From contig MU130626.1 in assembly GCA_015039465.1 (NCBI GenBank), forward strand, positions 353,523-406,276: a stretch of DNA of 52,754 nucleotides. Direction: 5' to 3'. The notes under the pieces were generated by a model. The model had not been told where the DNA came from and searched no databases. It was given only the letters and a program-made list of their open reading frames with translations. This document shows, in pieces, positions 2,735 through 52,754 of this stretch. This DNA comes from Phlegmacium glaucopus. Lineage: Eukaryota; Basidiomycota; Agaricomycetes; Agaricales; Cortinariaceae. A program made the position numbers and the translations under genes. Position 1 is the stretch's first letter; each line of letters starts with the position of its first letter.

Positions 2735-2938
2735 GATGAGAAGGATGAGGATGAATGAGAAAGAGTCTTCAGTAAGACTATAGCAGTAGACAATTGGTTG
2801 ACAGTAAGGGACTGAAAAAGTGAACTTAGAGGGATTAAGGAGGAGGATGAGGATGGATAAGAAAGAGTCTTCAGCAAGATTATAGCAGTAGAGGGATAGA
2901 TTGACAGTAAAGAGACAAAAAAAGCGAACTTGAGGGAG
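2735..2938. repeat. Tandem duplication, period about 102 bp
   Basis: Two adjacent diverged copies share GAGGATGA, AAGAGTCTTCAG, TATAGCAGTAGA and TTGACAGTAA in the same order. The AAGAGTCTTCAG word starts at 2761 and again at 2863, giving the period. The DNA is purine-rich with no recognisable coding capacity. The flanks (2480-2735 and 2938-4030) also contain no gene I can support. Confidence 0.6.
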
Positions 2939-4030
2939 GAATTCACTGGAATTCTACTGAGAGGATGACTGTGGGGAGTAAGAATGAATTGAGATAAACT
3001 ACCTATCCTGGTACAAAAGAGCAGTATTTACACCCTAAGGATGAGGCTATGTAGAACAATAAAAAGAAAGAAGTACGTGCTGTCAAAGGAAGAAAGATAA
3101 AGAGAGGACAGCTGCGAGAAGAAAAGAACAATAGAAAAGAAGAAGGAACAATAAAAAAATCTGTAAAGTGTCAAAGTGCGAGAGAAAAGAAAAGAAGGCA
3201 GTGTACATAGTCCAATAGCAAAAATACATCAACTCCATAGGCATGTGGTCATGTCAAAAATGTGAAAGGTCCTGAGTCAACACTTGAAAGGCACAGCCTT
3301 GTTCCCGAGAAAACACTACTTGCCCATGATCCCATGTTGTGCAGCATTGATAACACTTGACACACTGCAAGAATAATCCTCTGCTGCTGATTCATCTGCA
3401 ATTCCTGCTTAGTTGTGATCCTCCTGGACTTCCTAAGTTGTCATAAAGAGGGTGGGAAGGCTTCATGTACTGCGTGAATGATGGTTTTGGCAGTGAATGA
3501 TAAGATAAGAGGTAAATAATTGAGGATAGGGGTCCAAGAGCAAGGGATGGCAAGATAGATGGCTGAAGCAAAAACTTGTGGGTCATAGTCACAACAACAA
3601 TGACAAAGCCTCTGACATAATGGGAGATGTGGCTGATGTGTCCATAAAGAGGCCGTTCTTGAAATGATGGACCAAAGATACGATCAAATGCGAGCCAATG
3701 ACCAATGCGAATAGTAGATTGATCGCTTTGTTGGATCACTAGCCAAGGAACAAATGGATGGTATATGCTTAGGAGCATGTCAATAGTGTAAACAATAGAG
3801 AGCATAGTGTGAGACATTGAGAATATGATGAGTGATGAGGGTGATAACATTGAACAAATGATTTGTCGACCAGGAACACAATTCAGGGCTGCTTCCAAAA
3901 TAGGTAAGTGAATTCAAAGTCCACTTATTTTCATGATGGCAACTTTTAAGCTTTCTTCTCACACTACCAATCAGTATTGGTGTGCGATACCGGGTGCTGA
4001 TATATTGACTAACTTTTCTCACTAAGAAAG

Positions 4031-7851: not shown

Positions 7852-10800
7852 CAACAACAAAAACAGTATAACGAGGATAGAGCTACATTGTTGACTGCAG
7901 GGGACTTGCCTTGAAAGCCATAATAATGCATATCAAGGTGGGGTGATAAGTGATATATATCCATGATGAGAGAGGGCTTGTCAAGGGGGGGGGAGAAAGG
8001 GAACTAAGCCAGATATGAATAATTGGGTTGTGAATGATCACAATGAAGAAGGAAACGATGCAATATTCATCTTCACAAACAGCGTTGAGAAGAGATATTG
8101 TGATAGTTGAGAATCATGCAAAGGCAGATGACGATGCCCTAAGGAAACCGCTAAGTCAGCAACCAACCAACACATATTCAGGCAAAAGGAGGGTGCACCA
8201 TGTTGCAAGCTTCCAAGAGAGGCGCAGTAGACTGCTAGTGGTTCTTCCCCATCCTTATCTTCCTGTCTCACCACAAATCGCACAAAAACTAGATCAATCA
8301 TATCTCCCACACAATCAAATGTGATACGAAGTTTCTCCTCCCAAACAGGGTTAAACCCGTTCTTCTTCACCACGCTCGTTCGTGAGGAGATGGAACGAGC
8401 AGGGGTAGAGGACATTCCTGGCGGTGATGATGGTAGCGGGGTTGGGGGCGGGGTTACCTCGCTGTTGAGTCCAGCTTTGTCATCGGTATCGTCCCCAGTC
8501 TCCTGTATTTTCTTCTTGCCTTTATCTTCACCCACGACATGGACCGGCCAATCGGGAATATAGAGCGTAACCTCCACGTATGGATCCACAATCGCCTTGT
8601 CTAACACCTCCAGCCCCGAAGCATCTCTCGGCCTAGGCAATTGTTGTGCTGAGATGATCGTGACTTCAAAAGAATGGAGCGTTTTTTGTGCCAACAGATC
8701 CTTCTTGTGCGATAGACGGACGGCAGGAGGTTTGAGGACGTAGCCAGATCGACCGTTACGTTGGAACATGGCGTGGTTAATCATATATCCAAGATCTACC
8801 CCACAAAAAGTATTAGTATGTCAAACGAAGGGATGCCTTAGAATATAGAAAATAATAATTACCGAATGTCTGCCAATTGATAGATACCAACTGCATACCC
8901 CCGGCCCAAAACCGATGCGGCTCATAATTCGTCGAACTCAACCTAGTACCCTTAGGGTAAGTCCTCACCAAATGCGTTCTGGTATGCTTGATCAACTCTC
9001 CCATCCCAAACTTCATCATCTTGTTCGCCACATTCTCAGAAAGGGAGAACATATGTGAAGGAGCATATTCTTCCTTTTTGTTAAGACCGCGGCATTTGAC
9101 ACCAACCGTGTAGACGAGGAGAGAGAGGAGGGCAAGCGACATGCGTGGCTTGGATGTGAATGAAGGTCGAGAGAAATCAAAAGGCGAAGCAAGGACGGAA
9201 GATTTAGGGGAAGTAGGAGAAGAAACAGGCGATGATACCAAGGGAGGAAGAGAGGGAGATAGAGGTTTTGAGGATTTTCCAGCGCTTCTAACACGTTTCA
9301 ACATCGATGTACGTGCATTCAATAGTTGGCCTTAATAAAGGGGAAAAGAAAAGATGAAAAAATTAGGTGACAATGAAGCAATAGAAACGTATATGCAACG
9401 TACCTCTGTAAGTGGACTCTCAGTGGCTCCATCTCTGCTTTCTCTGTCGCATATATCGAGTTGGGCCATATCCGTCAACGCATCCGAATCCGACGCAGAT
9501 GAAAAAGGATCCGTATAGTAACCGTCACCATCTGATGAATCAACCTCGAGAAGCTCCAATTCTTAGCCTACAAGAAAATCAGGAAAAAGTAAAAAAAAGT
9601 GAACTCCTTCATACACACACCTTGAGGAGTATCTTCCCTTTCAATTCTTCTGGACTCGGCAACTCCTCCACCTCTATTTTCTTGCCTGATAGCGCTAGGC
9701 CGTCCTTGTCACTTTCGCCATCCAGCGGCATCCTCACTAACCTCTCCCCAAATATTTCTATCATAATCGCCGCAATGAGATCCTGCTGACCTATCGAGCA
9801 GTGGATCTCTGCAGAGATGATGATCGGATAAGGCGAGGCAACAAATCCATATTTGAGTATAGCTTCGCATAGTGAGACTTTGGAGGTAAAACTCTTCCCA
9901 TCAAAGACCATAGGCTCTTGGTCGCTATCGTATATATCCACTTATGAAGGAATGACTGAGTAAAAGATGGTCGGACGATGGGGTGGGATGGCTTACCTTC
10001 AACACTCCTACAACTATGCAATAGCGCCCTTATATACCCTTCGAGGGTACTAACTCCAACAAGTTGATGTCCTACTAGAGAGGTATTATATGACGATGAT
10101 ATATAGTATTCCGATAGTGGATGGGTCATATCTTGCCACGTGTTGTTGTGCTGGTCCGAAAAGGCGCAATTGTCGGGAGACATGAGAAAGGCATTGAAAG
10201 ATTCGAGAGTCATGATTACGGCGTTATCGACGTTCGTGGAATATTTAGTGAAAAGGGTTGTTAGGTCGTTAGAATCTAAAGTAGACTTACGCAGGGCAAA
10301 GTTCAGCCCACAAAGTCCAAGTAGAAAACAATTGAAAAACAGCACACCTTTTGGTCGTTACGCATGAAATTGTCATATACTCTAGAATCATCTTAAGCTC
10401 GCTGTAAAGTCGATTGATGTCTGGACGTCCTTTTAATAACTTGACGAAGTGACGACAATCATCAAAGTCAAGAAAACCCCGTCCCCGCGAGTCAGCTTGC
10501 TAAAATGATAAAAATAAGAATAGGAACAGAACCACAGCGAAGTAACACGCACCTTGAATAGACCGAATGAATCCTCATGGCTAGAAATGATATTCAACCT
10601 CCCAGCTTATGGTCCCTCTCCTCATCCGCTCCTGTCCAATAATGTTCTCCCATAAAGCTTGCCTTATCTGGTCATTTCCTAAGCCACGCATTAGCTCCTG
10701 GCGGATGGCGTGTAGCTCGCGGAGTGTCTTGTCCCACATCCTAAAAACATCCTTGGTAGCTGGTATAAGATGTAAAGTCTTGTAATTCCCATCTAGCAGG

Positions 10801-11815
10801 TATATAATGGTGAGCCAGCGGTCCTGGTAGTCTTGTGAAAGTTGGAATTGTTGTCGATAATAACGAGCGTCTTCACCCGAACGAATTTCCTTGATGTTTT
10901 CGATAGGAACTGGCAAAAGAAATATTAGCCATCTGTAGAACATGCAAAATAAGCAGAGAAAACGGAAAGGAAAAACAGTGAGGCTGGCAAGCCTGAAACC
11001 AAGGCAGGAAAAAAGAGAGAAAGAAAGAAAGACAGAAAAAAGCAATACGGGATCAACGGAAATGATAGAAGGGCGAGGTAGGCGTCGAAAGTTGTCAAGG
11101 TTGTGAGGACTAACTGATTTTATGCCGATTAGATTCCCAAACAATCTGCCCGAGGTCGGCATCCAAACGGAAGACAAATTTCTTATGTCTCTTCAATGAA
11201 ACTTTGGTCATGGGTGTTCCTTGTTGCAGCAACAGAGGTACTCGAATGTCGCCCACAGTGGGAGAGGGGGATATGGAGGATTCCGATGACTCGGTGACAT
11301 TCTGCACAGAGATGGTAACGCTCAGGAGGTTGAGCAGAATGTCGTTTCGATGTGGTTATTGGTTCAGTGTTGGAATGTGCATAGGTGGGTGCGTGGATGG
11401 TACCAAGACTTGGAGTGAGGTCGATGTCCAATGTCGGTGCTTGAAGAACTAACGGACGTGTTGAGGGAACGGCCGAGCAATTTTGAATTGTCCTTGAAAT
11501 TTTGTAGTCTCCGCCTGAAGGAGTCACCAAGCCCTTTGCGGCTAGTCGAAGGAGAATTTGCTGCAAGTGGCTTGACAGTCTGACCATTGTCGTTCAGGAA
11601 ATTACCGGCCCTACGGAGGAGTCCAACAGGTGGTGAAGGATCCTGCATTATATCTAGAGACTCAAAACCCAAAGAAAGAAAAAAGCAATGCGGGATCAAC
11701 GGAAATAATAGAAGGCTGAGGTAGCTGGCGTCAAGATTGTGAGGCGAGAAAGAGACTGATAAGTGGATGAACGGAAGTTGCAAGGAAGTTGTAACTTTGG
11801 AGGTTCCCCCTCACC
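7852..11815. repeat. Segmental duplication, copy 1
   Basis: This stretch is closely similar to 33779-37580 plus 43688-43858. Similarity begins near the ACAACAAAAACAGTATAA word at about 7855 and ends near 11815, just past TTGGAGGTT. Differences are scattered substitutions and small indels. Copy 1 lacks the 6.1-kb retrotransposon present in copy 2 and so supplies the empty insertion site at 11637/11638. Confidence 0.9.
8038..11648 (-). pseudogene. PLC1: Phosphoinositide-specific phospholipase C, delta-type, copy 1 (catalytic histidines lost)
   Basis: The domain order matches fungal PLC-delta enzymes, which cleave PIP2 to IP3 and diacylglycerol: serine-rich N-terminus from ATG 11646-11648, PH-like region (11300-10600), EF-hand-like stretch (10520-10370), X box (10345-9610), Y box (9320-8720, with NKKEEYAPSHMFSLSEN and STNYEPHRFWAGG) and C2 domain (8690-8038, with VVKKNGFNPVWEE). 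Short GT-AG introns separate them, for example within the C2 domain near 8210-8150. Both catalytic histidines of the X box are replaced: SSSYNTSL instead of SSSHNTYL (codon 10088-10090) and VFDGKSF instead of VFHGKSF (9900-9902). Two deletions of about 11 bp near 11320 and 11410 break the N-terminal frame. I could not join the X-box exon to the linker near 9560 with one intron in frame, in either copy. Copy 2 is at 33963-37580. Confidence 0.88.
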
Positions 11816-14019: not shown

Positions 14020-17000
14020 ATGAAGCGCATTTTCAAGAAAATTTTCAAGCCCAAGAAATCGAAATATTCATCTCAGACCGTCAACGATGCTCTGGGTTCC
14101 AACATCGAACCAGCTTCGACTTCGACCATCAAAACAAGCACCGCAAATCCCATGCTATCCGTTCCCGCTAATGCTGCCGCTGAAAGCGCACAAGTTATTC
14201 AAGTCGCTGGCGTGACTGTGAGCGTTCAACTCCTCCCATCGCATCCCTAAGTATTAACCATCGTCATCGATCAGGCTGCCCATGACCTAGTCTCTCCTTC
14301 GGTCTCTGCCTTGGTGATCAATGAGCCAGACGTAAGCATTCCAGACACTAGCGTTAATGTGAGCGTTCAACTTCGCCGATCGCGTCCTTAAGCATTTAAC
14401 CATCGCCATCGATCAGGCCGCCCATAACCTAGTCTCTACTTCAGTTTCCACTTTGCCGATCAATGATCTTGCTCCTGTAAGCACTCCAGCCACCGACGTT
14501 AATGTAAGTGTTCAACTTAGTCCATCATATCCATCACTACTCAATCATCCTCGTCGATCAGAGTGACCATGAACTTCAAGTCTCTGCTTCGGTTTCTGCT
14601 CTGGCTGTCGCTCCTGTAGTCCATCCGGAAGAGGGTTCATCCTCACCTGATGCTGTAATGCAAGCCAAATTGGGATCTATAGAATCGCAACAAAATCCCT
14701 CAGTGAGTTGCCTACACAATGTGTTCTCGGCTTTCACTGATAATCAGCAGACTCAGGATTCTGATTTGTGTCTTCCAACTCCCTTTGCAAATGCCCAGAC
14801 AGTGTTCATCACAGGTGGTACTTTTGTAAGTCATTTTTTTTGTAGGCTGTGTAGATAATTTAACAATATTTTGTCTGCCAGTATCACATTATCAATAATT
14901 TCCCTGCCAATACCAATGAACAGCAGACAAAGATTCCTGTACCTCAGCAACCACTTTCCAGTCTATTCTTTACTGGATGGAAAGCTGAACTTGACAAGCT
15001 TGGGAAGATTTTTGTTGATCGTGCTAATAGTAGACCAAGATGCTCTTGTCTCCTCTGGGGAACAGGAGGCATTGGAAAGACTCAGATCTGTCTTAAGTTC
15101 ACAGAAGAAATGTCTGGCAGGTAAGTAGTTTCATATTACCATTCACAACACTGGATTCATTCCTTACTCTAGTTTTTCACATGTGTTCTGGGTTGATGCC
15201 TCCTCTTATGAGAGCATTACTATATCTCTGAAGGGTATATCTAGCATTCCTGCTGCACAAGCTTCAGGTGTGAAAGGCTCAGTTGACTCTGTCCTCCAGT
15301 GGATATCTTGTATTCAAGGGGAATGGTTGATTATCTTTGATAATGCTGGTGATCCTCCTCCAGAGGTGATGGCCCAGTTCATTCCCCCAGGTAACAGAGG
15401 TAATATTCTGATTACCAGCAGAAACAGATCTGTAGGAAGGGTCATAGGCTTTCAGAATGTGATTGAGATCAGTGAAATGGAGGAGTCAGATGCTATAACC
15501 CTACTTCTCAGGGCTAGCTGTTTGGATCCTTCACCTGAGCATGTACAGGTTGCCAAAAGTATTGTGACTGAACTTGGTGGCATTCCTCTTGCTGTTGATC
15601 ATGCTGGTGCTTATATTGATGCTGGGAAATGTGATATCAATGAATATCTGACCCAATTGTCCTTACACCGTCAGACCCTTATGTCAGATGGTATATTCAA
15701 AGGAGCATCAAATTATAATCAAACAGTGTATGGGACTTGGGATCTATCTTTCAAAGAGATCGAAAAGAGAGCTAGTGGACAGTCCACTGCTGGAGATGCA
15801 CAGGCAGCCCAGGCTGCAATCCTAATTCTCCAAATATGTGCTTTCTATCATCATAGCAATATTTCTAAGGACATATTTGAATCTGCTGCTGAGGAAGCTA
15901 TAAAAGATGTTGTTGATAGTGACATAGCAGAAAAGATGCCTCTGGCAGTCACTTCACTGGATCATACTTTGCTTGACCTGAAAAATGATGGTCACTGGGA
16001 TGATTTCATCTTTGGACAAGGGATTAGTGTCCTTCTCTCATTCTCCTTGATGAAAAGAGGACAATCATCTAAAATGTTTTCTGTTCATCCTCTGGTGCAC
16101 AACTGGAGTCGAGAGAGAATGTCAGAGTCTGAGCAGCAAAGAATGTGTGAGATGGGAAGCATAATATTGTCCTGTGCAATTCCAGGGAGACATGAAAGCC
16201 AGGATTATGCACTGCGACGATTGATTTTTCAACATATTAAAGCAAATGAGTTATGTGGAAAGCAGATAGGACATATTACACAGTACTATGATGATAAATG
16301 GAGCAATTTCTCACTAGTAATGTGGGAGAATGGAGACTGGAACAATGCAGAGCAGCTGGAGGTTCAAGTTATAGACATGAATGTTCATGTTATGGATGTG
16401 AGGAAGAAGCTGCTTGGTGCAGAACATCCATCCAGACACCGTCAGCAGTATGGGAAATCTAGCAAGGACATACAGCAATCAGGGAAGGTGGAATGAGGCA
16501 GAGCAGCTGGATGTTCAAGTTGTGGACATGAGGAAGAAGCTGCTTGGTGCAGAACATCCAGACACCCTCATCAGTATGGCAAATCTAGCAAGTACATACA
16601 GGAATCAGGGAAGGTGGAATGAGGCAGAGCAGCTGGAGGTTCAAGTTATGGACATGAGGAAGAAGCTGCTTGGTGCAGAACATCCAGACACCCTCATCAG
16701 TATGGCAAATCTAGCAAGCACATACAGGAATCAGGGAAGGTGGAATGAGGCAGAGCAGCTGGAGGTTCAAGTTATGGACATGAGGAAGAAGCTGCTTGGT
16801 GCAGAACATCCAGACACCCTCAGCAGTATGGGAAATCTAGCAATCACATACAGCAATCAGGGAAGGTGGAATGAGGCAGAGCAGCTGGAGGTTCAAGTTA
16901 TGGACATGAGGAAGAAGCTGCTTGGTGCAGAACATCCAGACACCCTCATCAGTATGGCAAATCTAGCAAGCACATACAGCAATCAGGGAAGGTGGAATGA

Positions 17001-17814
17001 GGCAGAGCAGCTGGAGGTTCAAGTTATGGACATGAGGAAGAAGCTGCTTGGTGCAGAACATCCAAACACACTCATCAGTATGGCAAATCTAGCAATGACA
17101 TACAGCAATCAGGGAAGGTGGAATGAGGCAGAGCAGCTGGAGGTTCATGTTGTGGACATGAGGAAGAAGCTGCTTGGTGCAGAACATCCAGACACACTCA
17201 GCAGTATGGGACATCTAGCAACAACATACAAGAATCAGGGAAGGTGGAATGAGGCAGAGCAGCTGGAGGTTCATGTTATGGACATGAGGAAGAAGCTGCT
17301 TGGTGCAGAACATCCAGACACCCTCATCAGTATGGCAAATCTAGCAAGTACATACAGCAATCAGGGAAGGTGGAATGAGGCAGAGCAGCTGGAGGTTCAA
17401 GTTATGGACATGAGGAAGAAGCTGCTTGGTGCAGAACATCCATCCACACTCATCAGTATGGCAAATCTAGCAATGACATACAGGAATCAGGGAAGGTGGA
17501 ATGAGGCAGAGCAGCTGCAGGTTCAAGTTATGGACATGAGGAGGAAGCTGCTTGGTGCAGAACATCCAAACACACTCATCAGTATGGCAAATCTAGCAAT
17601 GACATACAGCAATCAGGGAAGGTGGAATGAGGCAGAGCAGCTGCAGGTTCAAGTTATGGATATGAGGAAGAAGCTGCTTGGTGCAGAACATCCAGACACA
17701 CTCATCAGTATGGGAAATCTAGCAGTGACATACAGCAATCAGGGAAGGTGGAATGAGGCAGAGCAGCTGAAACTTCAAGTCATGAATATGGAAATGAGAA
17801 TTGGAAGAGATTGA
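14020..17814 (+). CDS. STAND NTPase: NB-ARC domain with C-terminal tandem TPRs (fungal NLR-like), frameshifted
   Basis: Signal-transducing ATPase of the STAND class; fungal members act in self/non-self recognition and programmed cell death. I infer seven exons: 14020-14217, 14275-14358, 14417-14503, 14562-14702, 14748 or 14751-14825, 14882-15120, and 15173 onward, all with GT-AG introns of about 45-58 bp. The N-terminus is basic (MKRIFKKIFKPKK). NB-ARC motifs are clear: Walker A GTGGIGKT (15058-15082, about residues 254-262), Walker B-like EWLIIFDNAGD, ILITSRNR and GGIPLAVDHAGAYI. The C-terminus is a 42-residue kinesin-light-chain/NPHP-type TPR array. A tandem ATCC duplication at 16426-16433 shifts the frame: one frame stops at 16496 and the array continues in another to 17814. 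It is either a pseudogene, a switchable allele or a sequence error. The N-terminal effector-like part is not recognised. Confidence 0.82.
14218..14561 (+). repeat. Triplicated intron-exon unit in the NB-ARC gene
   Basis: Introns at 14218-14274, 14359-14416 and 14504-14561 (57, 58 and 58 bp) are near copies: each begins GTGAGCGTTCAAC or GTAAGTGTTCAAC and ends CATCGATCAG or GTCGATCAG. The exons that follow start with related words encoding AAHDLVS, AAHNLVS and SDHELQVS. All are phase 0 at both ends, so units can be gained or lost without a frameshift. Confidence 0.8.
16434..17780 (+). repeat. Tandem array of eleven 126-bp TPR units
   Basis: Eleven units of 42 codons, each containing LLGAEHPDTLISMANLA or a close variant followed by TYSNQGRWNEAEQL, run head to tail with few differences. 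Variation is concentrated at a few positions: AEHP followed by D, N or S; ANLAS/ANLAM/GNLAI; YSNQ/YRNQ/YKNQ; and EVQVMD/EVHVVD/QVQVMD. DNA-level identity across units is very high. This indicates recent expansion or ongoing homogenisation, as known for fungal NB-ARC-TPR genes. Copy number may be miscounted in any short-read assembly. Confidence 0.92.
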
Positions 17815-33778: not shown

Positions 33779-36700
33779 GACAACAAAAACAGTATAATGA
33801 GATAGAGCTACATTGGTTGCAGGGGGTTTGCCTTGAAACCATAATAATGAATAGTAAGGTGAGATGATAAGTGATATGTCCATGATGAGAGAGGGCTTGT
33901 TGAGGGGGGGGGTAGGGGAATTAACCCAGGGATGGATAATTGGATAATTGGATTCTGGATGATCACAATGAAGAAAGGAATGATGCGACATTCATCTCCA
34001 CAAACAGCATTGAGAAAAGGTATTGTGATAGTTGAGAATCATGCAAAGGCAGATGACGATACCCTAAGGAAACTGCTAAGTCAACAACCAACACTTATCC
34101 AGGCGAAAGGAGGGCGCACATGTTGCAAGCTTCCAAGAGAAGCGCAGTAGACTGCTAGTGGTTCTTCCCCATCCTTATCTTCCTGTCTCACCACAAATCG
34201 CACAAAAACTAAATCAATCATATCTCCCACACAATTAAATGTGATACGAAGTTTCTCCTCCCAAACAGGGTTAAACCCGTTCTTCTTCACCACGCTCGTC
34301 CGTCATGAGATGGAACGAGCAGAGGTAGAGGACATTCCTGGCGGTGAGGAAGGTAGCGGAGTTGAGGGCGGGGTTACCTCGCTGTTGAGTCCAGCTTTGT
34401 CATCAGTTTCGTCCCCAGTCTCCTGTATTTTCTTCTTGCCCTTATCTTCACCCACGACATGGACCGGCCAATCGGGAATATAGAGCGTAACCTCCACGTA
34501 TGGATCCACAATCGCCTTGTCTAGCACCTCCAGCCCCGAAGCATCTCTCGGCCTAGGCAACTGTTGTGCTGAGATAATCGTGACTTCAAAGGAATGGAGC
34601 GTTTTTTGTGCCAACAGATCCTTCTTGTGCGAAAGATGGACAGCAGGAGGTTTAAGGACATAGCCAGATCGACCGTTACGTTGGAACATAGGGTGATTAA
34701 TCATATATCCAAGATCTAACCCACAAAATTTTTTGAATAATTAGTATGTCAAACGAAACGATGTCTAGAATAAAGAGACAATAATTACCAAATGTCTGCC
34801 AATTGATAGATACTAACTGCATACCCCCGGCCCAAAACCGATGTGGCTCATAATTCGTTGAACTCAACCTAGTAAGTACCCTTAGGGTAAGTCCTCACCA
34901 AATGCGTTCTGGTATGCTTGATCAACTCTCCCATCCCAAACTTCATCATCTTGTTTGCCACATTCTCAGAAAGGGAGAACATATGTGAAGGAGCATATTC
35001 TTCCTTTTTGTTAAGACCGCGGCATTTGGCGCCGACCGTGTAGACGAGGAGAGAGAGGAGGGCAAGCGACATGCGTGGCTTGGATGCGGATGAGGAAGGT
35101 TGAGAGAAATCAAATGGCGAAGCAAGGACGGAAGATTTAGGGGAGGTAGGAGAAGAAACAGGTGATGATGCCAAGGGAGGAAGAGGGGGAGATAGAGGTT
35201 TTGAGGATTTTCCAGCGCTTCTAACACGTTTCAACATCGATGTACGTGTATTCAATAGTTGGCCTTAATAGAGGAGAAAAGAAAGGATGGAAAAATAAGC
35301 TGACAATCAAGCAACAGAGACGTATATGTAACGTACCTCTGTAAGTGGACTCTGAGTGGCTCCATCTCTGCTTTCTCTGTCGCATATATCGAGTTGGGCC
35401 ATATCCGTCAAGGCACCCGAATCAGACGCAGATGAAAAAGGATCCGTATAGTAACCGTCACGATCCGATGAATCAACCTCGAGAAGCTCCAATTCTTAGC
35501 CTACAAGAAAATCAGGAAAAAGTAAAAAAAAGTGAACTCCTTCAAACACACACCTTGAGGAGTATCTTCTCTTTCAATTCTTCTGGACTCGGCAACTCCT
35601 CCACCTCTATCTTCTTGCCTGATAGCGTCACTTTCGCCATCCAGCGGCATCCTCACCAACTTCTCCCCAAATATTTCTATCATAATCGCCGCAATGAGAT
35701 CTTGGTGACCTATCGAGCAGTGGATCTCTGCAGAGATGATGATCGGATAAGGCGAGGCAACAAATCCATACTTGAGTATAGCTTCGCATACTTCGCGTAG
35801 TGAGACTTTGGAGGTAAAACTCTTCCCATGAAACACCATAGGCTCTTGGTCGCCATCGTATATATCCACTTATAAAGGGATGGGTGAATAAAGGTAGTGA
35901 GCGGATGGGATGGGAAGGCTTACCTTCAACACTCCTACAACTATGCAATAGCGCCCTTATATACCCTTCGAGGGTACTAACTCCAACAAGTTGATGTCCT
36001 ACTAGATAGGTATTATGTGACGATGATATATAGTATTCCGACAGTGGATGGGTCATATCTTGCCACGTGTTGTTGTGCTGGTCCGAAAAGGCGCAAGTGT
36101 CTGGAGACATGAGAAAGGCATTGAAAGATTCGAGAGTCATGATTACGGCGTTATCGACGTTCGTGGAATATTTAGTGAAAAGGGTTGTTAGGTCGTTAGA
36201 ATCTAAAGTAGACTTACGCAGCGCAAGGTTCAGCTCACAAAGTCCAAGTAGAAAACGATTGAAAAACAGCATACCTTTTGGTCGTTACGCATGAAATTGT
36301 CATATACTCTAGAATCATCTTGAGCTTGTTGTAAAGTCGATTGATGTCTGGACGTCCTTTTAAAACTTGACGTGACGAAAATCATCAAAATCAAGAGATC
36401 CCGTCCCCGCGAGTCAGCTTGCTAAAACGACAAAAATAAGAATAGGAGCAGAACCACAGCGAAGTAACACGCACCTTGAATAGACCGAATAAATCCTCAT
36501 GGCTAGAAATGATATTCAACCTCCCAGCTTATGGTCCCTCTCCTCATCCGCTCCTGTCCAATAATGTTTCTCCCATAAAGCTTGCCTTATCTGGTCATTT
36601 CCTAAGCCACGCATTAGCTCCTGGCGGATGGCATGCAGCTCGCGGAGTACCTTGTCCCATCCTAAAAACATCCTTTGTAGCTGGTATAAGATGTAAAGTC

Positions 36701-37580
36701 TTGTAATTCCCATCTAGCAGGTATATAATGGTGAGCCAGCGGTCCTGGTAGTCTTGTGAAAGTTGGAATTGTTGTCGATAATAACGAGCATCTTCACCCG
36801 AACGAATTTCCTTGATGTTTTCGATAGGAACTGGCAAAAGAAATATTAGGCATCTGTAGAACATGCAAAATAAGCAGAGAAAACGGAAAGGAAAAACAGT
36901 GAGGCTGGCAAGCCTGAAACCAAGGCAGGAAAAAAGAGAGAAAGAAAGAAAGACAGAAAAAAGCAATACGGGATCAACGGAAATGATAGAAGGGCGAGGT
37001 AGGCGTCGAAGTTGTCAAGGTTGTGAGGACTAACTGATTTTATGCCGATTAGATTCCCAAACAATCTGCCCCAGGTCGGCATCCAAACGGAAGACAAATT
37101 TCTTATGTCTCTTCAATGAAACCTTGGTCATGGGTGTTCCTTGTTGTAACAACAGAGGTACTCGAATGTCGCCCACAGCGGGAGAGGTGGATATGGAGGA
37201 TTCCGATGACTCGGTGACATTCTGCACAGAGATGGTTTCAGAGAGAGCGTTGACAGGAGGTTGAGGAGAATGTCGTTTCGATGTGGTTATTGGTTCAGTG
37301 TTGGAATGTGCATAGGTGGGTGCGTGGATGGTACTAAGGTCACTCATGGACTTGTAGTGAGGTCGAAGTCCAATGTCGGTGCTTGAAGAACTAACGGACG
37401 TGTTGAGGGAACGGTCGAGCAATTTTGAATTGTCCTTGAAGTTTTGTAGTTCTCCGCCTGAAGGAGTCACCAAGCCCTTTGCGGCTAGTCGAAGGAGAAT
37501 TTTCTGCAAGTGGCTTGACAGTCTGACCATTGTTGTTCAGGAGATTACCAGCCCTACGGAGGAGTCCAACAGGTGGTGAA
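33779..37580. repeat. Segmental duplication, copy 2 (main part)
   Basis: Colinear with 7852-11637. The similarity resumes beyond the inserted retrotransposon at 43688-43858, matching 11638-11815. Differences include the indels listed under the phospholipase copies. Both copies lie in the same orientation about 26 kb apart. Confidence 0.9.
33963..37580 (-). pseudogene. PLC1: Phospholipase C, delta-type, copy 2 (catalytic His kept, frames broken, start cut off)
   Basis: Domain order is as in copy 1. The X box keeps both catalytic histidines: SSSHNTYLVGHQL (codon 36015-36017) and VFHGKSFTSKV (35828-35830). It is nevertheless broken. A 14-bp deletion near 35626 shifts the X-Y linker, an AGTAAGTA duplication at 34871-34878 shifts the Y box and gives a stop, one base is lost at the C2 intron donor near 34120, and one base is gained near 37451. 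A 6.1-kb retrotransposon separates the first codons (ATG 43696-43698) from the rest. As an enzyme it would cleave PIP2, but no full-length product is expected. Confidence 0.88.
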
Positions 37581-47962: not shown

Positions 47963-48921
47963 TCACTTGTAATTTAAACCATCAACTGCATCAGTTGTCA
48001 AATTAAGTCCGTTATGAGACATCTCATGCCCTCCCCAACGCATAACTCCAACCCCTTCAAGTTCTTTCGTTCGTCTCCAGATTGGCAAACAAGCGTTTCC
48101 ACAAGGTATGGTACGTGCAGACCTCGGCCCAAAGCATCGGATACCCCTTCTTTCAAGCCGATGGAGCTCAGATGCATATACCAGAGGCAAACCACGGATC
48201 GTTTCCCGCACAGACAGCTGCTTAGGATAGAAGCAATAGAGATGATTTGCCGTGAAGAAAGTGAATTGAGACGTGAATGAAGACGAGATGACGACAGGAA
48301 TGATGGATTGAGTTTTCGCAAGAGTTATCGTAATTGTCACACCCTATACAAAACATGAGACAATTTTTTTTTCCGTCATTTTATTTCAATGAGAACTTTA
48401 AATCTTACCGAGGTTCATATTAACTTTATGAAACGGCATGCACACTCATCATAGGCCATGCCAGGCAGACCATCAAAAGCAACAACTGTTCCCGAAGGGC
48501 TAAGGAGCAACTTCAGCCCATCAGCCACGTATGGTGAGTTGTTCGGGACAACAATGTTAAGGTCCCGGGGATCAATGTTATCCACAGTCATGAAATTCCA
48601 TGCAGCAGATCCGACGATTGCGGATTTGGTTTTCTCAATCAGGTGAAAGAACGGTGAGAGGTCATCGACAAAGGGGGTGAGTATTCTGTGTATGCATTGT
48701 CGGATTGAGGTATATACGACGTCCCGGGCGTGCATGCTAGAGTGAGCGAGGTTGACAGTACTCGTCCACGAGCAATGGCGTATGATTTCAGACAGGAGCT
48801 TGGTAACTCGAAAGACAACGGTTGCTGCCTTTGGTTTATTGAAGAGCTTCTCTTTTTTCTCTTGAAGTCGAGCGGATTGCCTTGGATATTTTTTTTTCAT
48901 GGGAGATTGTCCGTACGCCAT
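47963..48921 (-). pseudogene. Nucleotidyltransferase-fold-like Agaricomycete protein, with in-frame stop
   Basis: ATG 48921-48919 gives MAYGQSPMKKKYPRQSARL. The pattern IVGSAAWNFMTVDNIDPRDL followed by NIVVPN resembles the G-S...D-x-[DN]-hydrophobic core of nucleotidyltransferase folds, though the second acidic position is Asn, so catalysis is doubtful. Exon 1 reads to TGA 48417-48415, then two more codons to a GT-AG intron (48408-48344). Exon 2 continues in phase with VTITITLAKTQSIIPVVISS, FTSQFTFFTANHLYCFYP and CLPIWRRTKELEGVGVMRWG, the usual tail of this family as I remember it. The TGA makes it a likely pseudogene. Molecular function is unknown. Confidence 0.6.
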
Positions 48922-49020
48922 GCGAAGGGCTTGCGCAGATAGAATATATACCATAAAAAAAGGAAAGAAAAATTCTTTCCTTTCCGAACTTGTCCATTTC
49001 ACCGTGAAGTTACTATTCAA

Positions 49021-49434
49021 AAGACGTGTGCCAGATAAATTTTGATCATTTGCGTGCTATGGTTGTGGGGGTTGGCGGGGGGGTTTTGCTAGATTTCGAT
49101 TTGACGCCCCATCATTGCAAATTATCATGTGTGAATATTGTTGATTCCTACTTTCCTATTCCACGCTAGAGTTCATAATTTCGGCCTGATGCATGAGTCT
49201 AGTCAGACGCCTTATCTCGAGATTGAACATATGACATACCACTCAATGTTATCATTGGGTGTCCAATGTGCGTTTCGATCGTCCACGTGTGTGTCTCATT
49301 GTCATGGTCGTTGTTCAACATCACGCAACGATGTCACTCTGAGCTGATTTTCTGTTCGGACGCATGAGACAGGTATATATCAAGGATTCTCATTATCGTG
49401 GACACAACATCAAGACTGCAAAAGAAAAAGCAAG
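49021..49434. other. Spacer, no gene
   Basis: No gene is recognised. A G-rich GGCGGGGGGGTTTT tract is near 49073-49087. Confidence 0.35.
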
Positions 49435-49671
49435 TTATTTAGAGGTGACAGGAACATTCATTTCCGATTTGTTAATGAGGAGGAAATTTAGCGCGTCGTG
49501 TCCACGCCCGTTGGTGACCATCTGAACAATTGGAAGATAGAAACACGTGTGACACCTTAAATTTCCTCTTTTTTCTGAATGATTATGCCTCCTTTTTTTG
49601 GTCGCTCTGAACACATGATTTAAGGTGGAAGAAGGGGATACCAAATATTTTATCCATTCTTGCAATCTCAA
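49435..49671 (-). CDS. Hypothetical minus-strand ORF fragment
   Basis: A 78-codon open frame including NHVFRATKKRRHNHSEKRGN and ending DALNFLLINKSEMNVPVTSK. The ending looks protein-like and may be the last exon of a larger gene, but no ATG start, intron or relative confirms it. No domain is recognised. Confidence 0.25.
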   Translation of the reverse strand: MRLQEWIKYLVSPSSTLNHVFRATKKRRHNHSEKRGNLRCHTCFYLPIVQMVTNGRGHDALNFLLINKSEMNVPVTSK

Positions 49672-49879
49672 ACGAGTACCTGTCAGTTATCTCTTCGCGT
49701 CTCTTATTTATAGAGCAATTTACAAGCCATTTAAAGTGAAAAATTGATTATTTATTTATGAATCATATGATTAATGTATGTTGTCTCTATCTTCGTCCAT
49801 GTTATTGTTGAAATAGACTTGGATAAATCTTTAAAATGTTAATTCAGGTTGGTAACATGATTTCAAATATAATTTTCAT

Positions 49880-52030
49880 ACCTCAGGAGGCGTTCACGGA
49901 CCTCTGGGATATCGGATGTGCGGACGGCCGTACGTAGAAAGCCCTTCTAAAAAACCAGGTTGTTTACATTATGGTTACCATCGCCGTTCCTATAAGCGAC
50001 AACCACCGTAATGGCTTGGTAGCTAGTACCTGCGCTAGACACAAACTAGATCGGCCATTCAACTGTGCAAGGGGAAATCTGGTGACACGTAGACTGCCGA
50101 TAGGGTCATCGCTCGTGGTCGGAAAAAACCTATTTCGAATTGTTACATACGTCGGCCTTTCATAAACCGATACTCATACACAAGGCCGTTACAGTTTTTT
50201 CGGTTGAGAACACCTTAGGCAGGATAGGTGTCCAATAACCGGTCCCGTACGTAGCCGTTCCTCAGACAAAACTCGCTAGACTATGTAAGCTCTGTATATA
50301 CACGCAAAAGCGGCAGGCTTTAAGGTCCACCTACATTATCGTAAGGTAGTATGTCCAGTACTGACCTTACCTGAAGACATCCAAAGTTAGTTACACCTAA
50401 ACCTTATCTTGCCTCCCTTTCGAAACAATTCAGGAAACTTATACAAAGAGTTCGCGTATGCCGTGTTTGAGGTTGAAAGTCCCGTCGCAATGATCACGCC
50501 AGCTATTTGAGCCGTTACCGCAACAGTTGTTGAAGAAACCACCCGCGGAAGTACTTGCTTAAGACTGTGTTTAGTATCTGCAAACCGACTAGCTGCCTGA
50601 CAACATCCTATAGCGGGAAACTTCTTGGGAGTCTGTACAGTATTTAAACTAACGGCGGTACTCTCATAAATACATAAGGGACGCGTTAAAGTAATAGGTG
50701 TAGTTGTGCTTAAACCCGGACATGACCGTAGCCGCGAACGTACTATTCTCTCATATAACGTTTTACACAACAGCGAAAACTTGTGGCGTATACGAAGTCC
50801 GTCTAAGAAAATTCGGCACATTTACACGTAACCGTATTTTGACATAGGTAGAAAACGGGTAGTTTTTTTCATTCACTTAGTAACTAAAAAACTGACTTTT
50901 AAATTTAATTGTTACACATTTCGGAGATAAGTTCATCATCGTTCATGGAAAACAACTTCTACTACAAACTTCGTGAGCGTAAAGGTTGTCACAGAGGAAG
51001 TGGGCGCTGTGTGTGTAGGTAGTTGCACGCGCTTAACGAACTTCAGCTTCCGAGGCTGCTGCGTCTCGAACGGTCGCTTCGTAACCATCAGTTTCTGTTG
51101 TGTTAAACGGCTTGTCAGTAGACGTACGGATGTAGGCTGCTGCTTTCCTTGACCATGTTGAAAAACGTACTTGACTAGGAGTGGGTGAAGCAAAAGCGTT
51201 ATAACAATGTATAGCGTGTATTAAACAGTTATAACTCGAAGCGATTGAGGAGTACCTGTCCTTGAGGTAGAAACTTACAGGTCACTCTGTCTTAGAGTGA
51301 ACTGTCAATGCAGTTACTGAATGAAAGTATAGTGGTTTTATTTTTGAATGGAGAGGAGATTGCTATAAAAGAGGCGGTAACCAACAGGAGTCATTCTACA
51401 ATGTTAAGGTGGCCAAAATACTTCCAGCGTACTGTGAGTAACAAATACCATGCTTACCTCACTTTATTTATGTTTTTAAATTTTTTCCTCCTTTCACTTT
51501 GTCTCGCACGGGGATAACAATATTTGCACATTCGGAGGCTAATAAGCATAGTAGATTGAATGCGGGATGTAAATGTGACGTGTCTACCTTCTAGGACTCT
51601 AGCTGCAGTAGGTATCCTTTTAGTCCGTAGTCTGTGGCCATGCGAACAGTGTAACGGTTGTGTTTTGAGTATTTTTTTTCACTTTATTTCTCGAATTAGA
51701 CAAAGAGATGTCGTTTGGCTGCAAATGGTACCTCGAAATGAACGTCTTGCACGTAGTTCTTAAGTTAACATAGATAGGGTCATCTGCAGCCTTAGGTTGT
51801 ACGTGCCTTTGGAGTTCTATACCGGCAACTTGCAACCAACTCGTCTCTCAATATATGTTGGGATTTACAGCAGCTGAACCTGTACGTAAAGTTTGGGGAC
51901 GTAAGCTTGTTGAGACTGCCTTTTGTGTTGCTTTGTGACATATGCAACCAATACTGAAGTGTTCAAACAGCTTAAAAAAAATTTTTTTATTTATTTAACC
52001 CCATTGTAGTTTTGACTTAAAACGGTGGTT
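49880..52030. other. Segment that reads as a Helitron-associated gene only when reversed without complementing
   Basis: Read right to left as written, without complementing, 50893 to about 49921 encodes an almost open frame of about 320 codons. It contains in order GVCAVCA-stop-ETYSKDL, SHDLYDGMLLHPPG, ENAHICLECI, LPMHALANNLWIG, IPQELAFLTLPEHILIAKY, FPAAYIVKLYPKKAGARYW, MHSGLKGNVSTYRLDQTQIA, GSVMPPTANILAA and IGITFVGPKNLPE. These are hallmark motifs of the protein region upstream of fungal Helitron helicases (DUF6570-type). Upstream in that direction, a GT-AG intron (50947 down to 50894) joins in phase to more coding. Neither real strand encodes these motifs. The dinucleotide bias here favours AC/GT and TA over CA/TG and AT, opposite to the flanks. 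Ends are estimates. Confidence 0.9.
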
Positions 52031-52080
52031 GATCTGCTCTTGAGCGTTTGGGTATGAAGTAGCAGTTTTAGTAGATTATT

Positions 52081-52754
52081 CTCTGAACCAAGGTAGCAAA
52101 GACAATGTAAGGCAGTGTAAGACAGTGTGCAATGAGGCCAGGCTGAGGTATCCTCAGCAAAGGCCATCAGGCATGAGGCAAGGTCATGAGAGGGAACAAA
52201 GGCTGAGATGAGGAGGATGCAGGCTGAGGCTCTGTAGAGGCATAGTAAGGCTGAGAAGGCTGCTATAAGGTTTGTGGAATGGTGTGGAAGCAGTTAGTTG
52301 ATAAGGAAACAGTAGTGAAAGGGTGATAGTCAGTCGTGTGGTCGGTACCTAATAAGTGGGTTCTTACGTCCTGGAAAGGGCCCTCGTCTTGCGTCGTGAA
52401 TATAAATATAAGATATAGAGCCAACGTTAAGGAAAATATAAATTTCATGAGCTTGAACATACAAAAGGGAATCAAGCTTATAGTTGAATCAAGGGGAGGA
52501 GAACAAAAAGGAGATTCAGTGACTCCAGAAGGCTGAATAATGAAAGAAGAAGGCAAGGCTTTAGTCCTGTGGAATCCTCGACCCGCCGTGTCGTGTATGC
52601 GACTCCGGTTGCAGGAAAGGCCCAATGACAAGGCCAAGGCAAGGCCTCATTGAGGCTGCACTGAAGAGGAAACGAAATTTGAATTGTCAAAGGTCAAAGT
52701 ACCAACCCTTTGAACAATCACAACTTTACCTTACTTCTTGTTCCTTACTACCTG
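52081..52754. repeat. AGGC-rich low-complexity end region with inverted repeat
   Basis: The plus strand is dominated by AAGGC/GAGGC words. CAATGAGGCC (52130-52139) and its complement GGCCTCATTG (52643-52652) lie near the two ends and may mark an element. The dinucleotide bias of its left part is again normal for this genome. The minus-strand frame 52263-52637 has no recognisable domain. Confidence 0.4.

Follow-up and report, generated by a model that had tools for sequence, protein, structure and literature searches.

Helitrons are rolling-circle DNA transposons whose termini consist of TC at the 5' end and CTRR with a hairpin at the 3' end, and which insert between A and T. Gaps in an assembly can be narrowed with long reads, and the description of flank extension by PBJelly states that the procedure leaves a smaller N gap (PMC3504050). 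Hybrid assemblies of mycorrhizal fungi by JGI are described as having been produced with ALLPATHS-LG and PBJelly (PMC7550596). A literature search found no paper whose title or opening lines of the abstract describe assembly sequence that is reversed but not complemented, and sections of two publications (PMC4776415, PMC12288543) concern other matters.

The Helitron copy described here lies near the end of a 52,754-bp stretch of the Phlegmacium glaucopus genome (C226:353523–406276), which is referred to as the window and whose numbering is used unless a contig is named; the genome searched comprises 60.5 Mb in 259 contigs. The left flank of the copy (48580–49925, plus strand) is in normal orientation and stops where a block of 2829 bp (49926–52754, assigned to neither strand) begins, whose letters are plain-reversed, i.e., reversed without being complemented, and whose right end abuts an N gap. 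There is very little doubt that the block derives from an unremarkable Helitron segment that was reversed in the assembly file without complementation, most probably during a step that extends the edges of gaps. The reversal is an assembly artefact, a data error rather than a real biological feature.

The reversal is readily seen in the coding content of the block. The initial annotation had claimed that a long coding frame with several Helitron motifs and two TGA stops is present in the plain reverse and that neither real strand encodes a recognizable protein, and both claims are borne out. The part of the frame that bears DUF6570 (49926–50901, no strand) is readable in the plain reverse alone; it comprises the last 325 codons of the frame, which run from position 50901 down to 49926 and contain two stops, both TGA; in the related copy on contig C241, the frame is open across the corresponding region. 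When 272 residues of the reversed frame were compared with known proteins, 310 of the 506 candidates had E ≤ 0.001 (best match, E = 1.7e-100), and all 120 among the protein matches listed carry PF20209 (DUF6570). Forty of these 120 homologs were combined into a local profile, which yields 448.8 bits for the plain-reversed frame and 598.9 bits for a real strand of the C241 relative, whereas it finds nothing at E ≤ 10 on the six real-strand and three plain-complement frames and reaches a maximum of 1.5 bits on 600 frames from 200 dinucleotide-preserving shuffles. The comparison with real strands and shuffles that the initial annotation had proposed thus favors the plain reverse. The Pfam model of DUF6570 scores 84.7 bits (cut-off, 24.3) in a scan of the reversed frames only, the real strands having been assessed with the local profile. 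A resemblance due to chance or low complexity, with no reversed gene at all, is practically inconceivable in view of the difference between 448.8 bits and the 1.5 bits that the best of the 600 shuffled frames attains, and because another locus of this genome matches the block at 97.7% DNA identity over 2.2 kb.

That locus is the Helitron copy on C241. Read in reverse, the block aligns with it at 97–98% identity (97.7% over 2177 bp to C241 525138–522981; 100% over 66 bp to C241 525200–525135), and matches in normal orientation to C241 flank the block and the gap on either side. The left flank (48580–49925) is 98.3% identical to C241 526546–525200, with zero gaps, and the sequence to the right of the gap (55809–59277 in window numbering, beyond the window) is 97.4% identical. 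Since the flanks match C241 in normal orientation and the block in reversed orientation, the loci on C226 and C241 are two copies of a single element, and it is the portion next to the gap that is mirrored. A search of the whole genome with the deposited letters of positions 49880–52030 retrieved only these letters themselves and, in C241, 50 bp that belong to the normal left flank.

In the C241 copy, DUF6570 (93.5 bits), Helitron_like_N (PF14214; 114 bits), and a PIF1-like helicase (PF05970; 77.3 bits) are encoded in this order on one real strand, in separate ORFs. In the C226 copy, the PIF1 ORF is located to the right of the gap in normal orientation (73.5 bits); a counterpart of the Helitron_like_N portion of C241 was not detected next to the gap. 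Judged by these predicted domains, this is a Helitron-type element of the ordinary kind.

The borders of the block, which the initial annotation had placed at 49880 and 52030, have to be shifted, the left one by 46 bp and the right one by 724 bp. When the block is reversed in place from position 49926, the sequence across the left junction matches C241 without gaps in 120 of 120 bases; the other 59 of the 60 candidate borders tried with the left flank and the in-place reversed block reach at most 82 matching bases of 120. The perfect match at the left junction identifies the error at this border as a reversal and not a complementation. On the right, the last base of the block (52754) is directly adjoined by a run of 1436 N (52755–54190).

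The Helitron copy is itself interrupted by a repeat insertion of ~590 bp (~52101–52690, edges approximate; no strand), which is plain-reversed too. The C241 copy has no counterpart at the same point, but the plain reverse of the insertion is 83–93.5% identical to six copies in normal orientation within the portion of C226 that was analyzed and 86% identical to C241 509730–510249. Because it holds a mirrored insertion that is absent from C241, the block looks like the own sequence of the C226 locus and not like a copy pasted from C241.

The composition of the block points in the same direction. The ratio (CA+TG)/(AC+GT), whose use had also been proposed in the initial annotation, is 0.88 in the block vs. 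1.12–1.76 in all 17 equal-sized pieces from the rest of the window, and TA/AT is 1.40 vs. 0.56–0.91, which places the dinucleotide ratios of the block outside the range of the 17 control pieces. A log-odds reversal score based on k-mers (k = 6) marks C226 403440–405648 as the segment for this block. The last 700 bp of the block are unremarkable by this score (36 of 261 control pieces are equally low) because they consist mostly of repeat; here, the reversal is evident from homology.

The window has other features of note. A region encoding NB-ARC and a long TPR array with tandem units of 126 bp is present at 15183–17814, and related arrays occur on C241 and also past the gap in C226. Two similar phospholipase C-like gene regions (8038–11177 and ~34000–37000) lie ~26 kb apart; their match to PI-PLC-Y is under the Pfam cut-off and that to C2 is over it. 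For one ORF of the window, the nearest hits from named species are those of Hebeloma cylindrosporum (76%), Phlegmacium glaucopus (71%), and Gymnopilus junonius (63%), which points to the Agaricales.

The block is not the only stretch of this kind on its contig. The k = 6 reversal score was run over C226:153523–418941 (265 kb, six gaps with 12 edges), and the gap edges were compared with 261 control pieces of 700 bp taken from other positions. Among the five segments with the highest scores (168–451), four are located at gap edges or in the window block and one is in gapless sequence (181140–185397); 10 weaker reversed-like segments (227–732 bp; scores, 45–76) may be noise. Five of the 12 gap edges, at three of the six gaps, look reversed. 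The gap next to the window block accounts for two of them, and the other five gaps contribute three of their 10 edges, at two gaps. The remaining seven edges appear normal, and so do the two edges (zero of two reversed) of the one gap in C241:508001–538000. None of the 261 controls scores as low as three of the reversed-looking edges; for the edge to the right of the gap at 210142–214146, which is identified solely by its k-mer score, four of 261 do, and the fifth is that of the window block itself, whose reversal is shown by homology. Two gaps are reversed on both sides. The suspected reversed spans sum to 13,637 (5.5%) of the 247,363 non-N bases examined in C226.

These observations bear on the question of whether the block might be physically reversed in the chromosome as a mirror copy of the same polarity, formed by some unspecified mechanism. 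The deposited sequence does read that way, and computation cannot inspect the DNA itself. Yet such a copy would require a flip of strand polarity, for which no enzyme is known, and neither the reversal of five of 12 gap edges nor the exact halt at the N run is expected of a biological process, which makes a physical reversal extraordinarily improbable. The view of the initial annotation that no rearrangement yields a plain reverse is upheld, and so is its preference for a data-handling error or an artificially reversed block, given the contact with the N gap, the restored left junction, and the recurrence elsewhere; its additional proposition that the block would be unprecedented if physically real is rejected.

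The individual stretches differ in their content. On the right side of the gap that adjoins the window block, C226:407713–409330 (54191–55808 in window numbering) is plain-reversed, and its plain reverse matches a repeat at C226 172622–173672 (92.7% over 1059 bp). It was considered as the missing middle of the Helitron and rejected, as it matches C241 there in neither orientation; it is either a further insertion or a repeat read that was recruited in error. Another gap-edge block, C226:298957–300803, encodes a KDZ-associated CxC6 domain in its plain reverse (88.9 bits); an upstream KDZ frame was not seen by eye in its left flank, and part of the block has a second match of its deposited letters in C164 (99% over 796 bp). 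The plain reverse of a third gap-edge block, C226:310320–311148, equals the reverse complement of its own adjoining flank (311167–311879; 99.3% over 714 bp), and this pair reflects either a genuine inverted repeat or an artefact of extension. A fold-back caused by a missed adapter was rejected for this block because a fold-back in a raw read should be far less similar; it is also disfavored by the fact that inspection of the block by eye revealed no SMRTbell adapter.

At some of these other blocks, the error might instead have been an in-place complementation without reversal. A plain reverse pairs with the corresponding plain complement in one incorrect duplex, so that only the junctions can discriminate between the two, and those of the blocks at 310320–311148 and 298957–300803 are not decisive. 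With the left junction of the window block deciding for reversal (120 of 120 bases), complementation elsewhere is rather improbable.

Two repeats of the window, at 52098–52690 and 2844–3987, which are mutually unrelated, were used to trace reversed sequence through the entire genome. The repeat at 52098–52690 has 64 reversed vs. 1142 normal first-look candidates; 40 candidates of each kind were scored and gave 43 match rows in each case, one of the reversed rows being the window itself. The repeat at 2844–3987, whose reversed probe comprised 1064 of its 1144 bases, has 76 reversed vs. 855 normal candidates, and the 40 scored of each kind gave 41 reversed and 51 normal match rows. The reversed-letter rows of both repeats have identities of 79–100% and are spread over dozens of contigs. 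The reversed share amounts to ~5% and ~8% of the candidates, which are rough values because most normal candidates are unscored and fragments are possibly counted. The deposited letters of the repeat at 52098–52690 thus do have matches elsewhere (43 rows, including the window); those outside the window are interpreted as additional reversed copies. In four contigs (C144, C145, C195, and C206), reversed copies of both repeats are located less than 2 kb apart, as expected if whole blocks were reversed. For the Helitron block itself, which serves as a negative control for these counts, a second reversed copy was not found genome-wide, and most of its normal form yielded 10 match rows.

Reversed copies of the repeats also occur within 8 kb of the contig start in C237, C148, C183, C235, C164, and C178. 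Such positions account for five of 41 reversed rows vs. one of 51 normal rows in the case of the repeat at 2844–3987, and for two of 43 vs. one of 43 in the case of that at 52098–52690. Scaffold ends may be affected besides gaps.

The assembly carries reversed but uncomplemented sequence in many places, which is probably caused by the extension of gap edges. A program for the extension of flanks with long reads, such as PBJelly or a similar tool, would have written extensions into the gaps and thereby shrunk the runs of N. For extensions that came from the strand opposite to that of the contig, the order of the letters would have been turned and the complementation omitted, leaving mirrored edges. 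If only opposite-strand extensions were mishandled, only part of the edges would be affected, which matches what is seen. The description of PBJelly, whose use here we infer, makes no mention of reversal without complementation in its account of flank extension (PMC3504050). A clear error signature of long reads is absent from the block (four indel events in 2177 bp relative to C241), which counts against an origin from raw reads; the flanks have zero events in 1346 bp, zero in 3469 bp, and three in 2832 bp of other flank sequence.

Pieces of sequence could also have been reversed by a manual or scripted patch, e.g., during the incorporation of finishing reads, the editing of scaffolds, or a file conversion, rather than by a gap-extension program. 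Such an origin would accommodate the one reversed stretch that is located in gapless sequence (C226:181105–185397; 4.3 kb), which is plain-reversed-like by both k-mer score and homology. Its plain reverse is 76–94% identical to other places in C226 and 96–98% identical to C241, and in-place reversal at 181105 did not produce a continuous match on the right side. A patch would also agree with the fact that the signature of a program is not visible. However, the occurrence of reversed sequence on dozens of contigs and on both sides of two gaps speaks for an automated step at gap edges, so that a patch is an unlikely but not negligible source, and the extension of gap edges by a program remains the favored origin.

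Biologically, the finding means nothing, because the Helitron is ordinary and nothing physical in the fungus is reversed. It is nevertheless an issue of data quality, since plain-reversed DNA escapes ordinary searches, which cover only the two real strands, and therefore passes for unique non-coding sequence. The reversal probably corrupts a few per cent of the assembly; if C226 is typical, the extent would be in the order of 3 Mb. We give slightly less than even chances to the proposition that a published mushroom genome has been written in reverse at its gap edges, to an extent of several per cent, by an unreported software fault that has gone unnoticed also in other assemblies from the same pipeline. 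If true, these assemblies would be expected to contain spurious orphan sequence and disrupted transposons and to lack genes. Blocks of this kind can be detected by a search with reversed letters or by a k-mer reversal score, which are applicable also to other gap-filled assemblies, and the artefact is worth reporting to the maintainers of the assembly.

As in known Helitrons, DUF6570, Helitron_like_N, and a PIF1 helicase are all present in the C241 copy; unlike the norm, the DUF6570 part of the C226 copy is stored plain-reversed. The succession of contig, extension, shortened run of N, extension, and contig, which is the outcome of flank extension according to the description of PBJelly (PMC3504050), fits the anatomy encountered here.
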